From contig JAQGDQ010000771.1 in the NCBI GenBank assembly GCA_030141605.1, positions 1 through 64,000 on the forward strand: a stretch of DNA of 64,000 nt. The letters run 5' to 3'. This DNA comes from Tubiluchus corallicola (taxonomy: Eukaryota; Priapulida; Priapulimorpha; Priapulimorphida; Tubiluchidae). The position numbers were made by a program, and so were the translations under genes. Every line of letters begins with the position of its first letter. Positions within the stretch are counted from its first letter, which is position 1. This document shows positions 1-46,725 of this stretch, in pieces. Below the pieces are notes generated by a model. That model did not search any database and was not told the origin of the DNA. It saw only the letters and a program-made list of their open reading frames with translations.

Positions 1-535
1 AGTTTATTTTGTGGGTATTTACCAGACTATAACATATTAAATGCTTTAGTTCATAGACTGGTGCAGGTCCCATCTGGATTACTGTAATAGTTTATTTTGT
101 GGGTTACCAGACTATAACATATTAAAACTACAACGCGTTTAAAATTCTGCTGCTCGCCTTGTTGTTTGCAATATCAGCAGCTATGACCACATTACGCCCA
201 CGCTTTACCATCTGCATTCGTTGCCAGTCAAATACCGCATGCAATTCGAAATTTTAACCATGGTTTTTAAAGCTATCAATCAAGCGGCACATAAGCTGCA
301 TTTACCTGAACTTTTGACTGTATGTTGTTCTACCTATAGATGAAGATTTAACGAAGGCCCACTTTTTATAAACTGTTTTTAAACTTGCCACGGTTTATAA
401 CCGATCCTATGGGTTCCCATATTATTGGAATTTGCTGCCGTAAAAGCAAAGAACGTGCAGCAATTTTGATACTTTTAAATCCAAATTGAAAACTTACGTG
501 TTCTTAAATTTATCTTTGTCGTTTATTTTGATTAT
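1..535 (+). pseudogene. Decayed LINE fragment: C-terminal part of a non-LTR reverse transcriptase ORF
   Basis: Translating 74 onward gives LDYCNSLFCGLPDYNILKLQ, a stop, then NSAARLV..SSYDHITPTLYHLHSLPVKYR. This is the pattern that follows the reverse-transcriptase core in CR1/L2/Rex1-type LINEs. After frame changes come YGFPYYWNLLP near 408 and DTFKSKLKTYVF near 468, the usual 'YG.R.FS..AP.LWN.LP' and 'tFK..LKT' ending. Stops and frameshifts make it a dead copy. Positions 1-40 and 87-125 are a short direct duplication of about 38 bp. It lies in an intron of the HMMR-like gene. Confidence 0.8.
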
Positions 536-1478: not shown

Positions 1479-1649
1479 GAGCAAGAATTGTTGAAAACCA
1501 TGAAGAACTTTTCCGTACTACAATCTCAATTGGAGGAAAGTGAAAAACGGTGCGAAGAGCAACGGAAAGAGCTGGACATTGTCCAAAAACAGCTTCATAC
1601 TTCTACGCAGACCATTCTTGCTCTGCGTAAGGAAAAGGATGAGTTAAAG
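1479..1649 (+). CDS. HMMR: HMMR-like exon (visible residues 1-57)
   Basis: A 171-bp exon, phase 0 at both ends, bounded by acceptor tgttttcag and donor gtgtta. It encodes EQELLKTMKNFSVLQSQLEE onward to LALRKEKDELK, a coiled coil. Everything to its left in the window is intron, so the gene's start lies upstream. The donor is weaker than those of the other exons, and the 51-bp minisatellite begins only 44 bp downstream. Confidence 0.85.
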
Positions 1650-4600
1650 GTGTTAGTCTTACTGAGTTTAAATGCAATCACAATATTTATATGTTTTTAG
1701 ATAAATATGATGTGCCTCAAGGATCAATATTGTTGCCGCTCTTGTTTTTAGATAAATATGATGTGGTTCAAGGATCAATATTGTTGCCGCTCTTGTTTTT
1801 AGATAAATATGATGTGGTTCAAGGATCTATATTGTTTTTAGATAAATATGATGTGCCTCAAGGATCAATATTGTTGCCGCTCTTGTTTTTAGATAAATAT
1901 GATGTGGTTCAAGGATCAATATTGTTGCCGCTCTTGTTTTTAGATAAATATGATGTGCCTCGAGGATCTATATTGTTTTTAGATAAATATGATGTGCTTC
2001 AAGGATCAATATTGTTGCCGCTCTTGTTTTTAGATAAATATGATGTGGTTCAAGGATCAATATTGTTGCCGCTCTTGTTTTTAGATAAATATGATGTGGT
2101 TCAAGGATCAATATTGTTGCCGCTCTTGTTTTTAGATAAATATGATGTGCCTCGAGGATCTATATTGTTTTTAGATAAATATGATGTGCTTCAAGGATCA
2201 ATATTGTTGCCGCTCTTGTTTTTAGATAAATATGATGTGGTTCAAGGATCAATATTGTTGCCGCTCTTGTTTTTAGATAAATATGATGTGGTTCAAGGAT
2301 CAATATTGTTGCCGCTCTTGTTTTTAGATAAATATGATGTGCCTCGAGGATCTATATTGTTTTTAGATAAATATGATGTGCTTCAAGGATCAATATTGTT
2401 GCCGCTCTTGTTTTTAGATAAATATGATGTGCCTCAAGGATCAATATTGTTGCCGCTCTTGTTTTTAGATAAATATGATGTGCCTCAAGGATCAATATTG
2501 TTGCCGCTCTTGTTTTTAGATAAATATGATGTGCCTCAAGGATCAATATTGTTGCCGCTCTTGTTTTTAGATAAATATGATGTGCCTCAAGGATCAATAT
2601 TGTTGCCGCTCTTGTTTTTAGATAAATATGATGTGCCTCAAGGATCAATATTGTTGCCGCTCTTGTTTTTAGATAAATATGATGTGCCTCAAGGATCAAT
2701 ATTGTTGCCGCTCTTGTTTTTAGATAAATATGATGTGCCTCAAGGATCAATATTGTTGCCGCTCTTGTTTTTAGATAAATATGATGTGCCTCAAGGATCA
2801 ATATTGTTGCCGCTCTTGTTTTTAGATAAATATGATGTGGTTCAAGGATCAATATTGTTGCCGCTCTTGTTTTTAGATAAATATGATGTGCCTCGAGGAT
2901 CTATATTGTTTTTAGATAAATATGATGTGCCTCAAGGATCAATATTGTTGCCGCTCTTGTTTTTAGATAAATATGATGTGCCTCAAGGATCAATATTGTT
3001 GCCGCTCTTGTTTTTAGATAAATATGATGTGCCTCGAGGATCTATATTGTTTTTAGATAAATATGATGTGCCTCAAGGATCAATATTGTTGCCGCTCTTG
3101 TTTTTAGATAAATATGATGTGCCTCAAGGATCAATATTGTTGCCGCTCTTGTTTTTAGATAAATATGATGTGCCTCAAGGATCAATATTGTTGCCGCTCT
3201 TGTTTTTAGATAAATATGATGTGCTTCAAGGATCAATATTGTTGCCGCTCTTGTTTTTAGATAAATATGATGTGCCTCGAGGATCTATATTGTTTTTAGA
3301 TAAATATGATGTGCCTCAAGGATCAATATTGTTGCCGCTCTTGTTTTTAGATAAATATGATGTGGTTCAAGGATCAATATTGTTGCCGCTCTTGTTTTTA
3401 GATAAATATGATGTGCCTCGAGGATCTATATTGTTTTTAGATAAATATGATGTGGTTCAAGGATCAATATTGTTGCCGCTCTTGTTTTTAGATAAATATG
3501 ATGTGCCTCAAGGATCAATATTGTTGCTGCTCTTGTTTTTAGATAAATATGATGTGCCTCAAGGATCAATATTGTTGCCGCTCTTGTTTTTAGATAAATA
3601 TGATGTGCCTCAAGGATCAATATTGTTGCCGCTCTTGTTTTTAGATAAATATGATGTGCCTCAAGGATCAATATTGTTGCCGCTCTTGTTTTTAGATAAA
3701 TATGATGTGCCTCAAGGATCAATATTGTTGCCGCTGTTGTTTTTAGATAAATATGATGTGCCTCAAGGATCAATATTGTTGCCGCTCTTGTTTTTAGATA
3801 AATATGATGTGCCTCAAGGATCAATATTGTTGCCGCTCTTGTTTTTAGATAAATATGATGTGCCTCAAGGATCAATATTGTTGCCGCTGTTGTTTTTAGA
3901 TAAATATGATGTGGTTCAAGGATCAATATTGTTGCCGCTCTTGTTTTTAGATAAATATGATGTGCCTCAAGGATCAATATTGTTGCTGCTCTTGTTTTTA
4001 GATAAATATGATGTGCCTCAAGGATCAATATTGTTGCCGCTGTTGTTTTTAACGTAACCTAAAAAATTGCTTGCAGAAAAGTTTTCACATTTTCTTTGCT
4101 CCTTGACGTATTTTTACAAAAACATATACTTTAGTAATGTTAAATAAAAAATTATAGGAAGGAGGTTGACGAAAAGATGCAGCTTGCAACACTACGTAGT
4201 TATGGCAGTTTGGTGAGGAGAAATTTCATAAAATGTAGACGTGAAATCTTGACGAAAGATATAAACATTTATATCAGCTGATTAGAGAGACGTTCGCTCT
4301 CTCTTAATCTTTGCATCACTAAACTAATACATTTTCTTTTACTGTTATCGTGCACAGTATTGTCCACCTGTATCAGGTTTCTGACTTCATATTTTGGCCA
4401 AAAAAAGTTCACCCGTGCTCATATTTAGACCTTACTTTGAACTGAGCTTTTTATATTATGTTGAATGGGTTCCGTTCTGCATTTATCATTTCACTTTGTT
4501 TACAATTAAAAAAACTATTTTAAATTTTACGTGTATTGCAGGAAGATCTGAACGGAGTTTTTAATACCGTAAGAGATAATAAAGCCGCGCTTTTTGAGCG

Positions 4601-24400: not shown

Positions 24401-27084
24401 TAAATTACAGAGGGAAACGAGAAGGAATGAGCTCTACATGAAGATATAGAAAAGAAAATAGTATACCAGGTTCATTTTGCAGTCTCTTGATGTGAGTAAA
24501 TGCTTCCTCCGCTGCAGAAACTAATCTAGCTTTCCTACGTCGCAAACGTCGTTCGTACTCCAACTCTTCGTAGAACCTCTCATTGTGCCCGGAATCCCGC
24601 CTCCTTGCCGCCGCCGCCATGACGGCTCGCGACCGACCCTGCAGCGAGTTTGTCCCGCCGACGGAATCGATATCGTAGAATTTAAAACTATTCGAAGCGC
24701 TACCGTTCTTGTGAGTTCGTGACGGTATTTTCTCTAGGTAGGGATTATACACGGGGAAGTCTTTGTAGTATTGTTCTAGCACCCACACAGCTGCACGTTG
24801 GATGCTCAGCTGTCCCATGTTGTAAGCCCGATGTTCGCCATCTGGCGATCGCACAACGTTTATAGTAAACTGAGACTGCATCTGTCGAATTTCCAGCAAA
24901 ATCACAGCTAGATAGTGAATAAACAGCAGCGCGTCTATAAACGACACGGCGTACTGCACAATTTTATAATACATGTCGGCATTTCTCTGCATGGTGGCAA
25001 AGTCTAGGCTACGATCGTAGTCGAAGTCTGCCGGGATCAAGTTCTCGAAGCTACTCGACTGTTTTTCCTCTCCGGCAAGTATGCGCACGCCGTAGAACAG
25101 CCAGTAGCAAAAGGTGAAAATGAACGTCATCACTAGCACGATGCCTCTTAGCACAAAAACACGAGGCATGCTGGCTTTAGGTCGACGGTAGAACAATGCC
25201 CACGAACCGATGAGAAGGATTGCTAGTTTGAAGGAAAGGCTCATCAATAAACCTTCGCAAGCTGCATCACAACTGAAAGAAAAAACACGTATTGTAACGC
25301 GCATTTACATGTCGACTAAATTAACTCAAGTTTCGTAATTAAAATAATTGTAACGCATCAACAACTCTTGGATATCTAAAGGTTAAAAAAGACAATTGTA
25401 ATCTAATAATTCTCTTTGCGAATGGCAAATCAATAATTCCCCCAGTTTGACACGTTTTGCCTAGTGGCAATGCCGGCCAAATACAATCTAAGCATTTCAA
25501 ACGCAAGTCAAAAAAATTGTTGGTACATACTGAATATGAAATTGGCAAAAGAAACAATAAGTTAGATAATATTATAATATAACAGTGATATTATATTATA
25601 TATAATATTGTTAGATATTATATTATATATAATATTGTTAGATATTATATTATATATAATATTGTTAGATATTATATAACATGGTTTTTATAGGTTTCTG
25701 TGCTGTATACAAGCTACTTCCAGCTTAAGATAATAAGCTACTTTAAAATAAGATATTTTAAGAAACTAAAATATTAGTTCCCAAACACAGTACCAAAATG
25801 GAATGGTAATAGAGGAATTTGTTGATTTAAAGGATAACTCTAAAATGATTTACATCCACACGCCCACGCAAATTTAACACTTTCACGTATTCACACCTGA
25901 TTTCCGTCAATCCGGGTACGGCAATGAATTCCGGAAGAACGACAAACGCAACCGGCGTCAGAAATGCAAACAAGGCCAGGATTACGGCGACAGCTGTGCC
26001 CAGATACTGCGTACACTTGAAGCTGAGAGATTCGTCAAATTCCTTCTGCAGCGTGGACATGTCCTCCATGGATATTGACCGCTCGGACGTGTTACCCGTG
26101 ATGCACGTGGTGTTTTCCCCCCAGTTATCATCCTGAGGGATAATTTGTACCTGAAAATAAACAAATGCGTCAGTACACAAAGCCTGTAATAGCGAAACTC
26201 ATGATTTGGGAATGACGAGGGATTCTTCTGCATTTATATAAATTAAAATGCAGTTTTGTGGATAAATCTAATGAATATATTAGATTATAGATTATTAGAT
26301 TAAGATGTGATTATATGTAGTATTCAACACAAGCAGGCCTAAGTGCATCAGCTTAAAGTGAAAAAAACCGCAATTTTAAATTACATCCCCCAAAAAGCCT
26401 TCCATTGATCATGCTTACCTGTTTGAAATACTTATGAAACTAGAAAAAAAATTCTTGGTAATTTAAAATGTTTGCGCCAAAGTCGCAGACTCACCTTCCC
26501 AGCATGCACCACTGATTCACCAAAAATAGTCTTTTTAGTCTTATTGACTGAGACGTAGTACTTTATACTTTTGCTTAGCTAGCGAAGAGTGGTCTATAAA
26601 TGCTCTGACTGTTTTTTCAAATTTTACATGTTATCTAAATTTGTTTGAAATGATGTACTGTTAACAGGGCTGTGTCTAAAGGCCATCAGGGGGGAGTTTA
26701 AATTTACATACTTTATATACAGCGTTCCTACTAACAGTAACACAAATTTTGCGAGGCAGTAAGGCAGTATGTAGCTGATATAAAATTTCAAGACAATTTT
26801 TTTAAATTCATGTAAAGGGTTTCCTTGCGCTTTAAATTTCTGGAATGAAAAAACACTAATCTTTCTTCTACCTCTATAGTCTCATCGCCGGCATGGGAGC
26901 CGCCATCACCGCTGTTTATTGCGTTCATCTCTTCACCGGTGAGGCGCCCCCTATTGGGAGCTTGTCGGTGTCGGGAGCGACGATGCTTGCCAGCGCTGCC
27001 GTGACTGCGACGAGACTGGTTCGACTTCTCGCTGTGACCCGACCTGACGCTTTCCACGTCCACATTATTCATGGTGGTAATCAT
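21103..27084 (-). CDS. VANGL: Van Gogh-like planar cell polarity protein (VANGL/Strabismus), complete, five coding exons
   Basis: Exons 27084-26872, 26150-25897, 25272-24467, 23371-23246 and 21404-21103 join in frame to 566 codons (vertebrate VANGL2 is 521). The N-terminus is Ser/Arg/His-rich. [20 protein letters not shown] (about 78-97) is the conserved DDNWGE block with the Ser/Thr cluster phosphorylated by CK1-type kinases in this family. There are four membrane segments, at about 120-143, 164-183, 194-216 and 260-283. The long cytosolic tail contains [44 protein letters not shown] and FLERYL, and ends in ETSV, a class I PDZ-binding motif. The protein works in the plasma membrane with Prickle, Frizzled, Dishevelled and Celsr. 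Compared with vertebrate VANGL, about 35 extra residues sit between TM3 and TM4. Confidence 0.97.
21405..22340. other. VANGL intron 4, unique part
   Basis: AT-rich intron. Around 21600-21720 a short AAGAACATAAGTCA block is repeated about three times with different spacing. No exon is apparent. Confidence 0.6.
22341..23183. repeat. 70-bp minisatellite, about 12 units, in VANGL intron 4
   Basis: The unit starts TGCTACTTGTAAAATACGAA and goes on ATGGAAAAGTCTCTTTTAGT, CGCATCCTCTGCCTAATCAA, GATCTTGTGA. The internal units are nearly identical; the left-edge unit is the most diverged. The array ends about 60 bp from exon 4's donor side. Confidence 0.95.
23246..23371 (-). CDS. VANGL: VANGL exon 4 (residues 425-466)
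   Basis: A 126-bp exon, too short to stand out by open-frame length, with acceptor gttacatcag and donor gtagga on the - strand. It encodes [21 protein letters not shown] then [20 protein letters not shown] and L, matching the DP.EAAQA.F...AR..QKYLR.T.QQP..T.ESIL block of VANGL proteins. Confidence 0.96.
23372..24200. other. VANGL intron 3, no exon seen
   Basis: Unique AT-rich intron. TACAGTGTTATAC near 23946 might be the eroded left end of the pogo-like element whose right end is at 24368, but the match is short. Confidence 0.5.
24240..24368 (-). mobile_element. Right end of a pogo/Tigger-like DNA transposon
   Basis: Read on the - strand, the sequence begins CAGTGTTCCCTCGCTACTTT, then GCAGTTCGTTTATTGCGGAC and TCGCTGTTTTGTGGG, with a TA dinucleotide outside. 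The form CAGT.TTCCCTCGCTA..TCGCGGTT with TA duplication is typical of Tigger/pogo elements. Only this end is clear. It lies about 100 bp from VANGL exon 3. Confidence 0.55.
24467..25272 (-). CDS. VANGL: VANGL exon 3 (residues 156-424)
   Basis: An 806-bp exon with acceptor tttctttcag and donor gtatac (- strand). It carries TM2 ([18 protein letters not shown]), the [14 protein letters not shown] loop, TM3 ([20 protein letters not shown]), an unusual 35-residue acidic insert ([20 protein letters not shown] onward), TM4 ([20 protein letters not shown]), and the first half of the cytosolic tail through [11 protein letters not shown]. Confidence 0.97.
25585..25680. repeat. 27-bp AT-palindromic tandem repeat in VANGL intron 2
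   Basis: Three-plus copies of GTTAGATATTATATTATATA + TAATATT. Each unit contains a self-complementary ATATTATATATAATAT core, so it could extrude hairpins. Confidence 0.9.
25897..26150 (-). CDS. VANGL: VANGL exon 2 (residues 72-156)
   Basis: A 254-bp exon, acceptor gtttattttcag, donor gtgtga (- strand). It encodes [20 protein letters not shown] then [20 protein letters not shown], and TM1 within [20 protein letters not shown]. The TSERSIS Ser/Thr cluster aligns with the CK1-phosphorylated T(S)EHSIS cluster of vertebrate VANGL. Confidence 0.97.
26151..26871. other. VANGL intron 1 (between coding exons 1 and 2)
   Basis: A GT-AG intron of 721 bp (- strand gtagaa ... ttttcag). AT-rich, no further feature seen. 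Confidence 0.7.
26872..27084 (-). CDS. VANGL: VANGL exon 1 coding part (residues 1-71)
   Basis: It starts at ATG 27084-27082 and ends before donor gtagaa. It encodes [20 protein letters not shown], then [20 protein letters not shown], to ETIE. The second ATG (27072-27070) has the better initiation context, ACCACCATG, so a 562-residue product is possible. The [12 protein letters not shown] stretch corresponds to the N-terminal Ser cluster of VANGL (YSGYSYKSGHSR type). Confidence 0.93.
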
Positions 27085-43340: not shown

Positions 43341-45830
43341 TTCTTTATTTGTCATAAAAACGGTTCCCTCATTATAATAAAATTGAGTTAGCCTCAGCGT
43401 AATGTTAAAATAACAACACTGTTCAAGACAAATGCGTCCAGTGCATACTAAAAAACTAAAGTGCAAACTATATACAATATAATGAACATATTTACAAATA
43501 CCATATTAAAATATTTTTACAAACAATTATAGGAAAGTACATTAAATTTTACATTACATAGTGCACACTATTTATACATTTAACATAACGAAACACGAAA
43601 CTAACATAACACGTATTACATTACATAATTTTTTTTAAAAAATTTCATTTTTAATCATTATATGGAGTCAGGGGCGGGGGTAGATGAAAGTGGAGTCCGT
43701 GTAATTAGTATCAGATGCACAATGTGGAAGTTGAAACCTGTTATATTGATATTCTTTTAATTTCTTTTTAAAGTGGTGGAGAGATTCTATTTGTTTTATT
43801 TCACTGGGTAGTAAGTTCCATAAATGTATGGCCTGTTTTGATATAGAGTTATTTCCAAATTTATTGTTTACTGTAATTTGCTTTAAATTGTATGGTCTAG
43901 TGTTCAATGTGGTATCAGGAATAAATGCTAAGGGATTGTTTATAAATGGAATGCTCAGTTTATTTATATATTTATAAAGAAATATCAGTGTTTTGTAATC
44001 TCGATAGGCTTCTAGTATTGGTATTTTTGTGGACGTTCTTAAGCTTGTTGCAGAAGCAGCATGTTGTTTAGCAGTTTTGTTAGAGTAGCCATGAATTAAT
44101 CTAAGTGCGTAGTTTTGCATTGTATTTAGTTTTCTAAAGTTTTCATATTTAACGTTTTGAAGTAAAGTGCAACCATATAGATAATGTGGTAATATTAGAC
44201 TTTTGTAGATGAGAATTTTTTTTTTCTTGGTTAGATGGCCTCTGGTTTGGCGTAAGAATGTCGTGCTTAATGCCATCTTGTTGTGTATTTGATGAAACTG
44301 TTCATCCCAAGTGAGTTTATTGTCGACAGTAATGCGTAAAAATTTTACAGTTTTTGCTTGTTCTATGGAACAGTCACCTACTTTTAGTGTTGCATTAGAA
44401 GTAATGTCATTGGATTTGGGTGATATTACCATAAATTCTGTCTTATCATCATTCATTTTTAAACCAAAATAGTTAAATGCTGCATTTATATTTGTTATGT
44501 CTTTTTCTAGATTATTTTTTGATGTTAGAAAGTCTGCGTGTGCTGTATAGAGTGTTGTATCATCGGCATATTGTGTTAAGTCTGAATTATGTAAAACTAA
44601 ATGAATTTTATTAACGTATAAACAAAAGAGTAATGGACCTAATATCGTACCTTGTGGGATGCCTCTCTGTGGTGTGTCCCATGTTGAAAAAGTGTGTTTG
44701 TTCAGTTTGACTCTTTGTTTTCTAATGTGTAGGTAATTATTAATTACTTTGAGAGAAGTATAATCGAATCCTAATTGGCGTAAGTTGTCTAGTAGTAAAT
44801 TGTGATCGAGGCTGTCAAAAGCTTTACTTAGATCTAAAAATGCTGCTGTTATATATTTATTTTTATTTAAGTTGTAACGCCACTTTTCAGTGGCATCAAT
44901 TATCGCGTCTATTGTAGAATGTAGTTTTCTAAAACCAAATTGATGATTTGACAGTAACTTATTATTTTCAATGTAATGGTTTATTTGGTTGTAGATAACT
45001 CTTTCAAATACTTTGGCTAGTACGTGCACTACTGAGATTGGTCTGTAGTTTTTAGCATCATCTTTAGCATCTTTCTTGTGTATTGGAGTTATGTTTGCTT
45101 GTTTACACACTGCTGGAAATTCTGAGCGCATTAAGACTTGGTTTGTGATATATGTTAGATGAGGAGTAATGATGCTGGCACAGTCTTTTAAGATCTTTAT
45201 TGGCATGTCTGAGGGTCCACTTCCTTTATTTATATTTAAACTGTTTAATATTCTAAAGATGTCGTATTCTGTGACGCTAGTAAATGAGAAAGTGGATTGT
45301 ATTACTGATTGGTTTTTGTATATATTGTGTATATTTGCATTATGTTGGTGTGGCAAGTTGTCAAATTTTCCGAGATTGATAAATGTGGAATTTAATTTGT
45401 TAGCAATGTCAACTGGATCAGATATTATACTGTCATTTTCTCGTAAACTATTTATTTGTAATTGATCGTTTCTGTATCTGTTAAGTACGTCATTAATTAA
45501 ACGCCATTTTTGTTTAGGTGTAGTTGCATCATTGCATTTATTAATATAATATTTATTTTTGAGTTTCCTGTTGTAGCTATTAAATTTATTTCGTGCCTTT
45601 TTGTAATTATTGTAATTGCTTTTACCTTTTAAATGTAAATATGTTCTATATAATTCATTTTTATTGTGTCTTAGTTTTGCGAGTTCTGTATCCGCCCAAG
45701 GGCAGGCAGATTTTGCATTAAATTGCTGCTGATGTATTTTAATTTTTTTATACGGTGCATAGATATCCAGGCAGTATTCCATATTATTTATTAATGTGTT
45801 TATTTGCATGTCAATGTCAGTCGTTTGCCG
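43299..45830 (-). mobile_element. Non-LTR retrotransposon (LINE), 5'-truncated, with intact RT region
   Basis: On the - strand the copy starts inside ORF2 (about 45830), after the endonuclease domain. It carries the uninterrupted 713-codon frame to 43668, then a 3' UTR of about 330 bp ending GACAAATAAAGAATTAATAT, and a (TA)n tail of about 40 bp (43299-43338). No target duplication could be identified. At its 5' junction GTTTGC(CGTTTGC) motifs are repeated three times (45828-45880). Confidence 0.88.
43668..45809 (-). CDS. LINE ORF2 C-terminal part: reverse transcriptase (713 codons, no stop)
   Basis: Reverse-transcriptase motifs occur in order. KQANITPIHKK (about 236) and NYRPISVV (254) are followed by FGFRKLHSTIDAI (291) and motif A, AAFLDLSKAFDSLDH (322-336). 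Motif B is RGIPQGTILGPLLF (382-395), and the catalytic YADD is at 414-417. FGLKMNDDKTEFMV, LTWDEQF and a C-terminal LWNLLPSEIKQIESL complete it. It belongs to the CR1/Jockey-like superclade; the exact clade is undetermined. The N-terminal endonuclease is missing, so this copy cannot be autonomous. The open frame suggests a fairly recent insertion. The first Met is simply the first in frame; coding extends upstream to about 45829. Confidence 0.93.
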   Translation of the reverse strand: MQINTLINNMEYCLDIYAPYKKIKIHQQQFNAKSACPWADTELAKLRHNKNELYRTYLHLKGKSNYNNYKKARNKFNSYNRKLKNKYYINKCNDATTPKQKWRLINDVLNRYRNDQLQINSLRENDSIISDPVDIANKLNSTFINLGKFDNLPHQHNANIHNIYKNQSVIQSTFSFTSVTEYDIFRILNSLNINKGSGPSDMPIKILKDCASIITPHLTYITNQVLMRSEFPAVCKQANITPIHKKDAKDDAKNYRPISVVHVLAKVFERVIYNQINHYIENNKLLSNHQFGFRKLHSTIDAIIDATEKWRYNLNKNKYITAAFLDLSKAFDSLDHNLLLDNLRQLGFDYTSLKVINNYLHIRKQRVKLNKHTFSTWDTPQRGIPQGTILGPLLFCLYVNKIHLVLHNSDLTQYADDTTLYTAHADFLTSKNNLEKDITNINAAFNYFGLKMNDDKTEFMVISPKSNDITSNATLKVGDCSIEQAKTVKFLRITVDNKLTWDEQFHQIHNKMALSTTFLRQTRGHLTKKKKILIYKSLILPHYLYGCTLLQNVKYENFRKLNTMQNYALRLIHGYSNKTAKQHAASATSLRTSTKIPILEAYRDYKTLIFLYKYINKLSIPFINNPLAFIPDTTLNTRPYNLKQITVNNKFGNNSISKQAIHLWNLLPSEIKQIESLHHFKKKLKEYQYNRFQLPHCASDTNYTDSTFIYPRP

Positions 45831-45834
45831 TTTG

Positions 45835-46725
45835 CAAACACCGTTTGCAATTTAAAACACCGTTTGCCGTTTCCACGTAAGGTTGGAAATCTTACGTGAC
45901 GTCACAACATGAAAATTGTTTAAAAACTTATTACATGAATGAGACAAGCATCACGGCTAAATAGATATCTTTATAGAGTTACTTCCTGAGTGAGTTTCAC
46001 TGATTACCAAAATAGTACGCGTTCTACACAGATGCAGGTGTGTGTGTATACGTTGATAACATTGCATAACAGTACGTACATGTATAACTCTTATCTTACG
46101 AAACGAAGTCATAAATTCTGATAGAAAATGTCCTAAAATCATTCAGGCGAAAACATATGAATTTAAATTATGTTAATTAAAATTTTACGGGCACTTCGTG
46201 TCGCATAAATAACAGTTCGTTTAACAAGTTAGGCAATTCGAACAAGCCACAGATGAGAGCTCTGTAAATCTTGTGTTGGTACGGAAGGAAATTTCACAAC
46301 GGGGGGGGGGTGAAAAACACAAGTTTAAGGTTAATGTTTTTTTTACTTGACAAAAGTGCGGATACGTTCAAATATCCTCTTAAATTTTCAGAAATTCAAA
46401 AAAAATAATGACGATGTTCTATTTTTTTCTTCTGATAAACATATCTGTAAACATTGTCTGTACACTGGTGAACAGTGCAAAACAATTTACGAGGATTTAC
46501 TAAACCAAATTTGATTGCAGAAAGCCAGAAACTATTATTAACTCAAAAAGCTACGAACAAAACATTTGCCGTACCACAAATGCTTTAATGGCAGCCGGTA
46601 CAAAGGTGGTGCAGAATGTTAGCGATTTTTGAAATCCAAACCTTGAATGATTATAAAACAAATTATCTGCCCTGGAAATAACTCACTCTTTGCCTTGAAA
46701 ATGCTCAGTTGGTTTGCCCTGCAAA
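45835..46725. other. Intergenic, no gene seen
   Basis: Unique sequence after the LINE 5' junction, including a poly-G run at about 46302-46312. TTACGTGACGTCAC near 45893-45906 contains CRE-like sequence but no gene is attached. Confidence 0.5.

Follow-up and report, generated by a model that had tools for sequence, protein, structure and literature searches.

The minisatellite at positions 1694-4051 (+) of the 64,000-nt stretch of Tubiluchus corallicola DNA analysed here (contig JAQGDQ010000771.1; hereafter the window) most probably descends from a retrotransposon gene. We give a probability of about 0.85 to a reading in which a piece of roughly 50 bp from a LINE-type reverse transcriptase (RT) was duplicated head to tail and grew to 48 copies, yielding a neutral minisatellite. 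TRF places the bounds of the array at 1692-4051. Counting the head-to-tail units gave 40 of 51 bp and eight of 39 bp, the shorter ones being 51-bp units without one 12-bp block, which bears out the earlier note's description of 48 copies amplified from a unit of about 51 bp. With these unit lengths and this copy number, the array falls within the 10-100 bp head-to-tail units by which TE-derived minisatellites are defined. Each unit reads LDKYDVPQGSILLPLLF or a variant of it, and the + strand across the unit boundary gives VPQGSILLPLLFL.

The unit matches the RT motif VPQGSILGPLLFL at 12 of 13 residues. For comparison, 30,000 random 51-mers with the dinucleotide make-up of the window were read as tandem repeats in every frame and on both strands; the best of these reached 7 of 13 residues (11 of the random units) and none scored higher. 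Although the target motif was selected post hoc, a margin of 12 against 7 is large and leaves little room for chance. The claim that a single mismatch in 13 residues is unlikely to be accidental is thus upheld. In searches with the array peptide, the Pfam family RVT_1 did not score and nothing was found in the PDB, as expected for so short a stretch; for a motif of this length both are weak tests. We take the names of RT motifs A, B and C to apply here, and presume the compared loci, classed by RT sequence only, to be LINEs.

The similarity extends to the DNA level. Aligned over its whole length, the 51-bp unit matches the RT motif-B region of two LINE-type loci (L050 and L052) at 40 of 51 bases, the alignment needing one 3-nt gap. 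Within the first 39 bases of the unit, these two loci and L072 match at 31; beyond this core L050 and L052 match at 9 of 12 bases after the gap, which is thin extra evidence. The earlier note had made its proposal depend on a LINE of the same genome resembling the unit past the 13-residue core, and in the comparison run for this the similarity to L050 and L052 spans 51 bp. The alignment supports its derivation of the unit from the motif-B region of a LINE-type RT, and the unit would correspond to a motif-B segment with the V of VPQG at one end and the D of YIND at the other, one codon short. When the tandem unit was compared with 12 RT loci (83.7 kb, both strands counted), its local score was 53, a value reached by none of 1000 mononucleotide shuffles (mean 37.2, sd 3.1, max 49); the reversed unit scored 41. 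The margin was narrower with dinucleotide shuffles, the best of 60 reaching 52, just under 53.

We also looked for the parental copy. A DNA search of the assembly (343.5 Mb, 2344 contigs) with 84 nt of the array returned 47 matches, all within the array, after a first look that kept one candidate region. By DNA search the array is thus a single-locus minisatellite. RT genes are abundant in this genome, since there were 3610 first-look candidates for the Pfam RT family and all 150 of those scored exceeded the cut-off. A degenerate pattern lying between the unit and the LINE-like motif gave 89 matches, of which 30 fall in the array and 59 outside it; its reversed form gave none. The LINE that had been placed at 43.7-45.8 kb is present as an RT open frame at 43,668-45,851 (-) (RVT_1 E = 1.4e-34) carrying the motif IPQGTILGPLLF. 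It was rejected as the parent, as its core matches the unit at only 22 of 39 bases. No RT was detected in the 60-nt flanks of the array (p = 0.63 upstream and 0.49 downstream), and overlap with a TE copy was not seen. That neither the DNA search nor the flanks yielded a parent is what speaks for a motif match by chance or convergence in an array unrelated to LINEs. We consider this improbable, given the residue match far above the best random unit, a 51-base alignment as good as that of no mononucleotide shuffle, and a second array (C309, described below) that holds an intact copy of the motif. The assignment of the source to the class of LINE-type RTs therefore appears well supported, with no parental copy found by DNA search or in the flanks.

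By reading the units, six variable base positions were found besides the 12-bp indel, four of them amino-acid changing and two synonymous. Six positions are too few for a selection test; they are compatible with the earlier note's view that purifying selection is absent. Unit types are patchily ordered, with a recurring L-V-V-r block that TRF reports as a 192-bp period, a higher-order repeat. Minisatellites usually expand by slippage or unequal exchange. We infer that a motif-B piece of about 50 bp, bounded by the V of VPQG and the D of YIND, would have been duplicated head to tail within an apparent intron, that slippage or unequal exchange would then have expanded the duplicated unit to 48 copies, which fits the patchy unit order and the 192-bp repeat, and that the resulting array would be a neutral minisatellite.

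The gene model around the array is drawn from sequence features. A probable exon of a coiled-coil protein lies upstream at 1479-1649 (+), preceded by CAG and followed by GT; Pfam gives it weak, generic coiled-coil-type matches, none above the cut-off. The array would lie in the probable intron that follows, at 1650-4161 (+), whose 3' end is uncertain (its AG could end at 4157 or at 4161). A further exon possibly begins at 4158 or 4162. The array thus probably sits within an intron of an animal gene. By reading, most long units contain CTCTTGTTTTTAG, which resembles a 3' splice acceptor, so that the probable intron would carry dozens of decoy acceptors. Further upstream, positions ~100-503 (+) read LQRV*NSAARLVV, LHSLPVKYRMQFEIL and YYWNLLP and resemble what we take to be a decayed LINE 3' end; compared with the LINE in the window, this segment gives a weak match (39%, E 0.43). 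Elsewhere in the window, an open frame at 24405-25304 (-) matches Strabismus/Van Gogh, a planar-polarity protein (Pfam E = 2.3e-114), as indicates an animal source.

The array also carries a long open frame. The earlier note described a 788-codon frame open through all 48 units; the frame is indeed open throughout, but its stop-to-stop length is slightly greater, at 804 codons (1643-4057, +). A repetitive protein of RT-like units could be translated from such a frame and the frame be retained, and the lack of interruption across all 48 units is in keeping with this. We nevertheless regard a translated protein as very improbable. Random 51-mers from the window, circularised (20,000 in all), have at least one of the six frames open in 91.8% of cases, and an open frame stays open at any copy number if the period is divisible by three; the frame of the array therefore needs no explanation. 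By reading, amino acids are altered at four of the six variable positions, and the candidate exon lies in another frame, which meets a TAG in the first unit. The minus strand inside the array is open in parts as well, with two further stretches of 182 and 210 codons. We judge the long frame to be incidental, a side effect of both unit lengths being divisible by three, and infer that it is without function.

The RT motif-B segment apparently recurs in eight other clusters, four seen in sequence and four identified by the spacing of matches only. Among the former, C309 was found by the first protein search and has nine copies of a 53-bp unit. Its first copy has the intact motif GVPQGSTLGPLLFLIYI; most of the later ones read GMPQGSTL, and PLLF is preceded by R or S. 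With a unit of 53 bp, which three does not divide, the frame is lost from one copy to the next. RT in the C309 flanks was not significant (p = 0.29 and 0.15), and a comparison of six of the nine copies gave 4/2/5 variable sites by codon position, showing no bias. In C1885 a 119-bp unit occurs twice, and C290 has two 60-bp copies, 82% alike and 214 bp apart. Four copies were seen in C2284, 144-154 bp apart and 68-72% alike. Their variable sites by codon position were 6/2/10 over 14 codons (p = 0.019), mostly third positions, and 10/4/12 over 20 codons (p = 0.10); the significance depends on the length taken and the bias is not relied on. At positions 907-1640 of the C2284 stretch (L110) the old tandem copies are about 69% alike, and the motif-B part is better kept than the rest (74.6% vs 65.5% outside).

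The four clusters known from spacing are C1377 (three matches 124 bp apart), C2251 (matches 58 and 348 bp apart, 348 being 6 x 58), C2133 (240 and 122 bp apart) and C2056 (three matches 168 bp apart). C1556, C109 and C1946 are doubtful as further clusters. C1636, one of the 20 motif-B stretches assessed below, has a lone motif adjoining a TA repeat. C118, also reached by the first protein search, was rejected as a related array, being an unrelated 51-bp array of DLVRPPQGPQLLLL. Two identical motif-B matches 1261 bp apart (G000 C690:4987 and 6248, +) are perhaps a duplicated piece of a LINE.

Taken together with the window array, the four clusters seen in sequence and the four with regular match spacing raise the question of whether LINE RT motif B is a preferred minisatellite seed in this genome, either through its sequence or through breakage or copying of LINE DNA at that point. 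We hold this tentatively, as a possibility on the unlikely side. Tandem context was assessed in 20 motif-B stretches of 501 bp, chosen for unlike matched strings from the 59 matches outside the array; L049-L052, from the motif-B set, served as RT queries and were left out. A second motif copy lay nearby in three of the 20 (C1885, C2284 and C290), against none of 40 control stretches for motifs A and C (20 from 135 matches and 20 from 124, respectively), giving a one-sided Fisher p of 0.033, with samples that are small and stretches hand-picked from the match lists. A variant that counted isolated or tandem motifs (4/20 vs 0/40, p = 0.0099) was set aside, as it includes L127, taken for an RT relic on inspection although its coverage by the RT panel is 0.

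The match lists give a less favourable picture. By eye, no same-strand pair within 1 kb was seen among the matches listed for motif A (100 of 135), motif C (part of 124) and NYRP (20 of 20), which agrees with a preference for motif B. Among the matches listed, however, clusters made up 3 of the 205 for motif B and none of the 220 for A, C and NYRP together, a difference that is not significant (p = 0.11), and the three motif-B lists overlap, so that the 205 matches are not all distinct loci. These came from three patterns, one of which contributed 100 listed of 120 matches. Up to three mismatches were allowed for A, C and two of the motif-B patterns, and two for the third motif-B pattern and NYRP. 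Reversed-pattern controls gave no matches, except for one in the NYRP search.

Microhomology between VPQ and a downstream NDxPQ was considered as a cause and rejected. Among 33 distinct motif stretches the mean match was 5.70 of 18 at offset 54, where it is just mildly raised, vs 7.30 at offset 41, and the genome has just two YIND[LMV]PQ sites for the coding that was searched. It is kept as an idea for C309 alone, whose later copies read GMPQG. A motif-B hotspot is weakly supported. The stronger proposal, in which motif B has been a recurrent and independent seed above other conserved LINE motifs, with units or spacings of about 51, 53, 58, 119, 122, 124, 150 and 168 bp, is in our view doubtful; it would reflect either a duplication hotspot or the retention of arrays carrying a stretch that ranks among the most conserved in LINEs. 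As a speculation, retained motif-B arrays might supply small RNAs directed at many LINE families simultaneously.

Tandem repeats are generally plentiful around the array. Counting arrays with a period of at least 10, a length of at least 100 bp and at least 2.5 copies, the window holds 16, which cover 18.3% of its non-N bases. The window is thus very minisatellite-rich, and on this count the genome seems to favour minisatellite growth. Arrays made up 13.6%, 11.3% and 21.3% of three other stretches (L016, L017 and L009), 2.4% of L018, which overlaps the window, and 2.9% of 159,660 bp in total when the 34 loci L019-L052, mostly intact RT genes, are included; the choice of stretches was non-random and the shares are not genome-wide estimates. 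Twelve other arrays of the window, compared with 12 LINE loci, gave no clear match, with one marginal case (43 vs a maximum of 42 in eight shuffles).

Arrays of this kind have precedents. In the human genome at least 7,276 minisatellites and satellites, 23% of those catalogued, are TE-derived, and some TE regions (AluS, LTR12) act as minisatellite hotspots, according to the available part of the source (PMC3389668, 2012). There, a TE-derived array is one whose unit is similar to a TE or which overlaps an annotated TE copy (PMC3389668, same part); here it is the similarity of the unit to LINE-type L050 and L052 that was found. The likeness lies in TE pieces amplified head to tail, and the difference in the seed, the human cases discussed in that part being Alu and LTR12 (PMC3389668) and ours the RT coding core of a LINE-type element. 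Closer in source, Pvc20 (Phoca), PROsat (Phodopus) and HinfI from CR1 (Gallus) derive from LINE ORF2 coding DNA, as given in the accessible portion of a review (PMC9659126); these are satellites, whereas the present array is a minisatellite at one locus, 2.4 kb long and built on a 51-bp unit. The earlier note's description of a rare case does not hold in view of the thousands of human TE-derived arrays (PMC3389668), the LINE ORF2 satellites (PMC9659126) and the apparent further arrays of the same segment in this genome, as far as the available parts of both sources go. Arrays built from the RT core motif are not mentioned in the titles and opening lines of abstracts within our literature coverage, which most subscription papers fall outside. 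The array belongs to the well-documented TE-derived minisatellites, a known way of repeat birth.

The array is a clear-cut case in which the origin of a minisatellite can be narrowed to a few codons within a retrotransposon gene. Should the excess at motif B prove true, it would provide a sequence-defined hotspot for studying how minisatellites are born, and would help to explain why gene prediction may yield long, spurious RT-like frames. Otherwise, the array would represent ordinary turnover in a minisatellite-rich genome.
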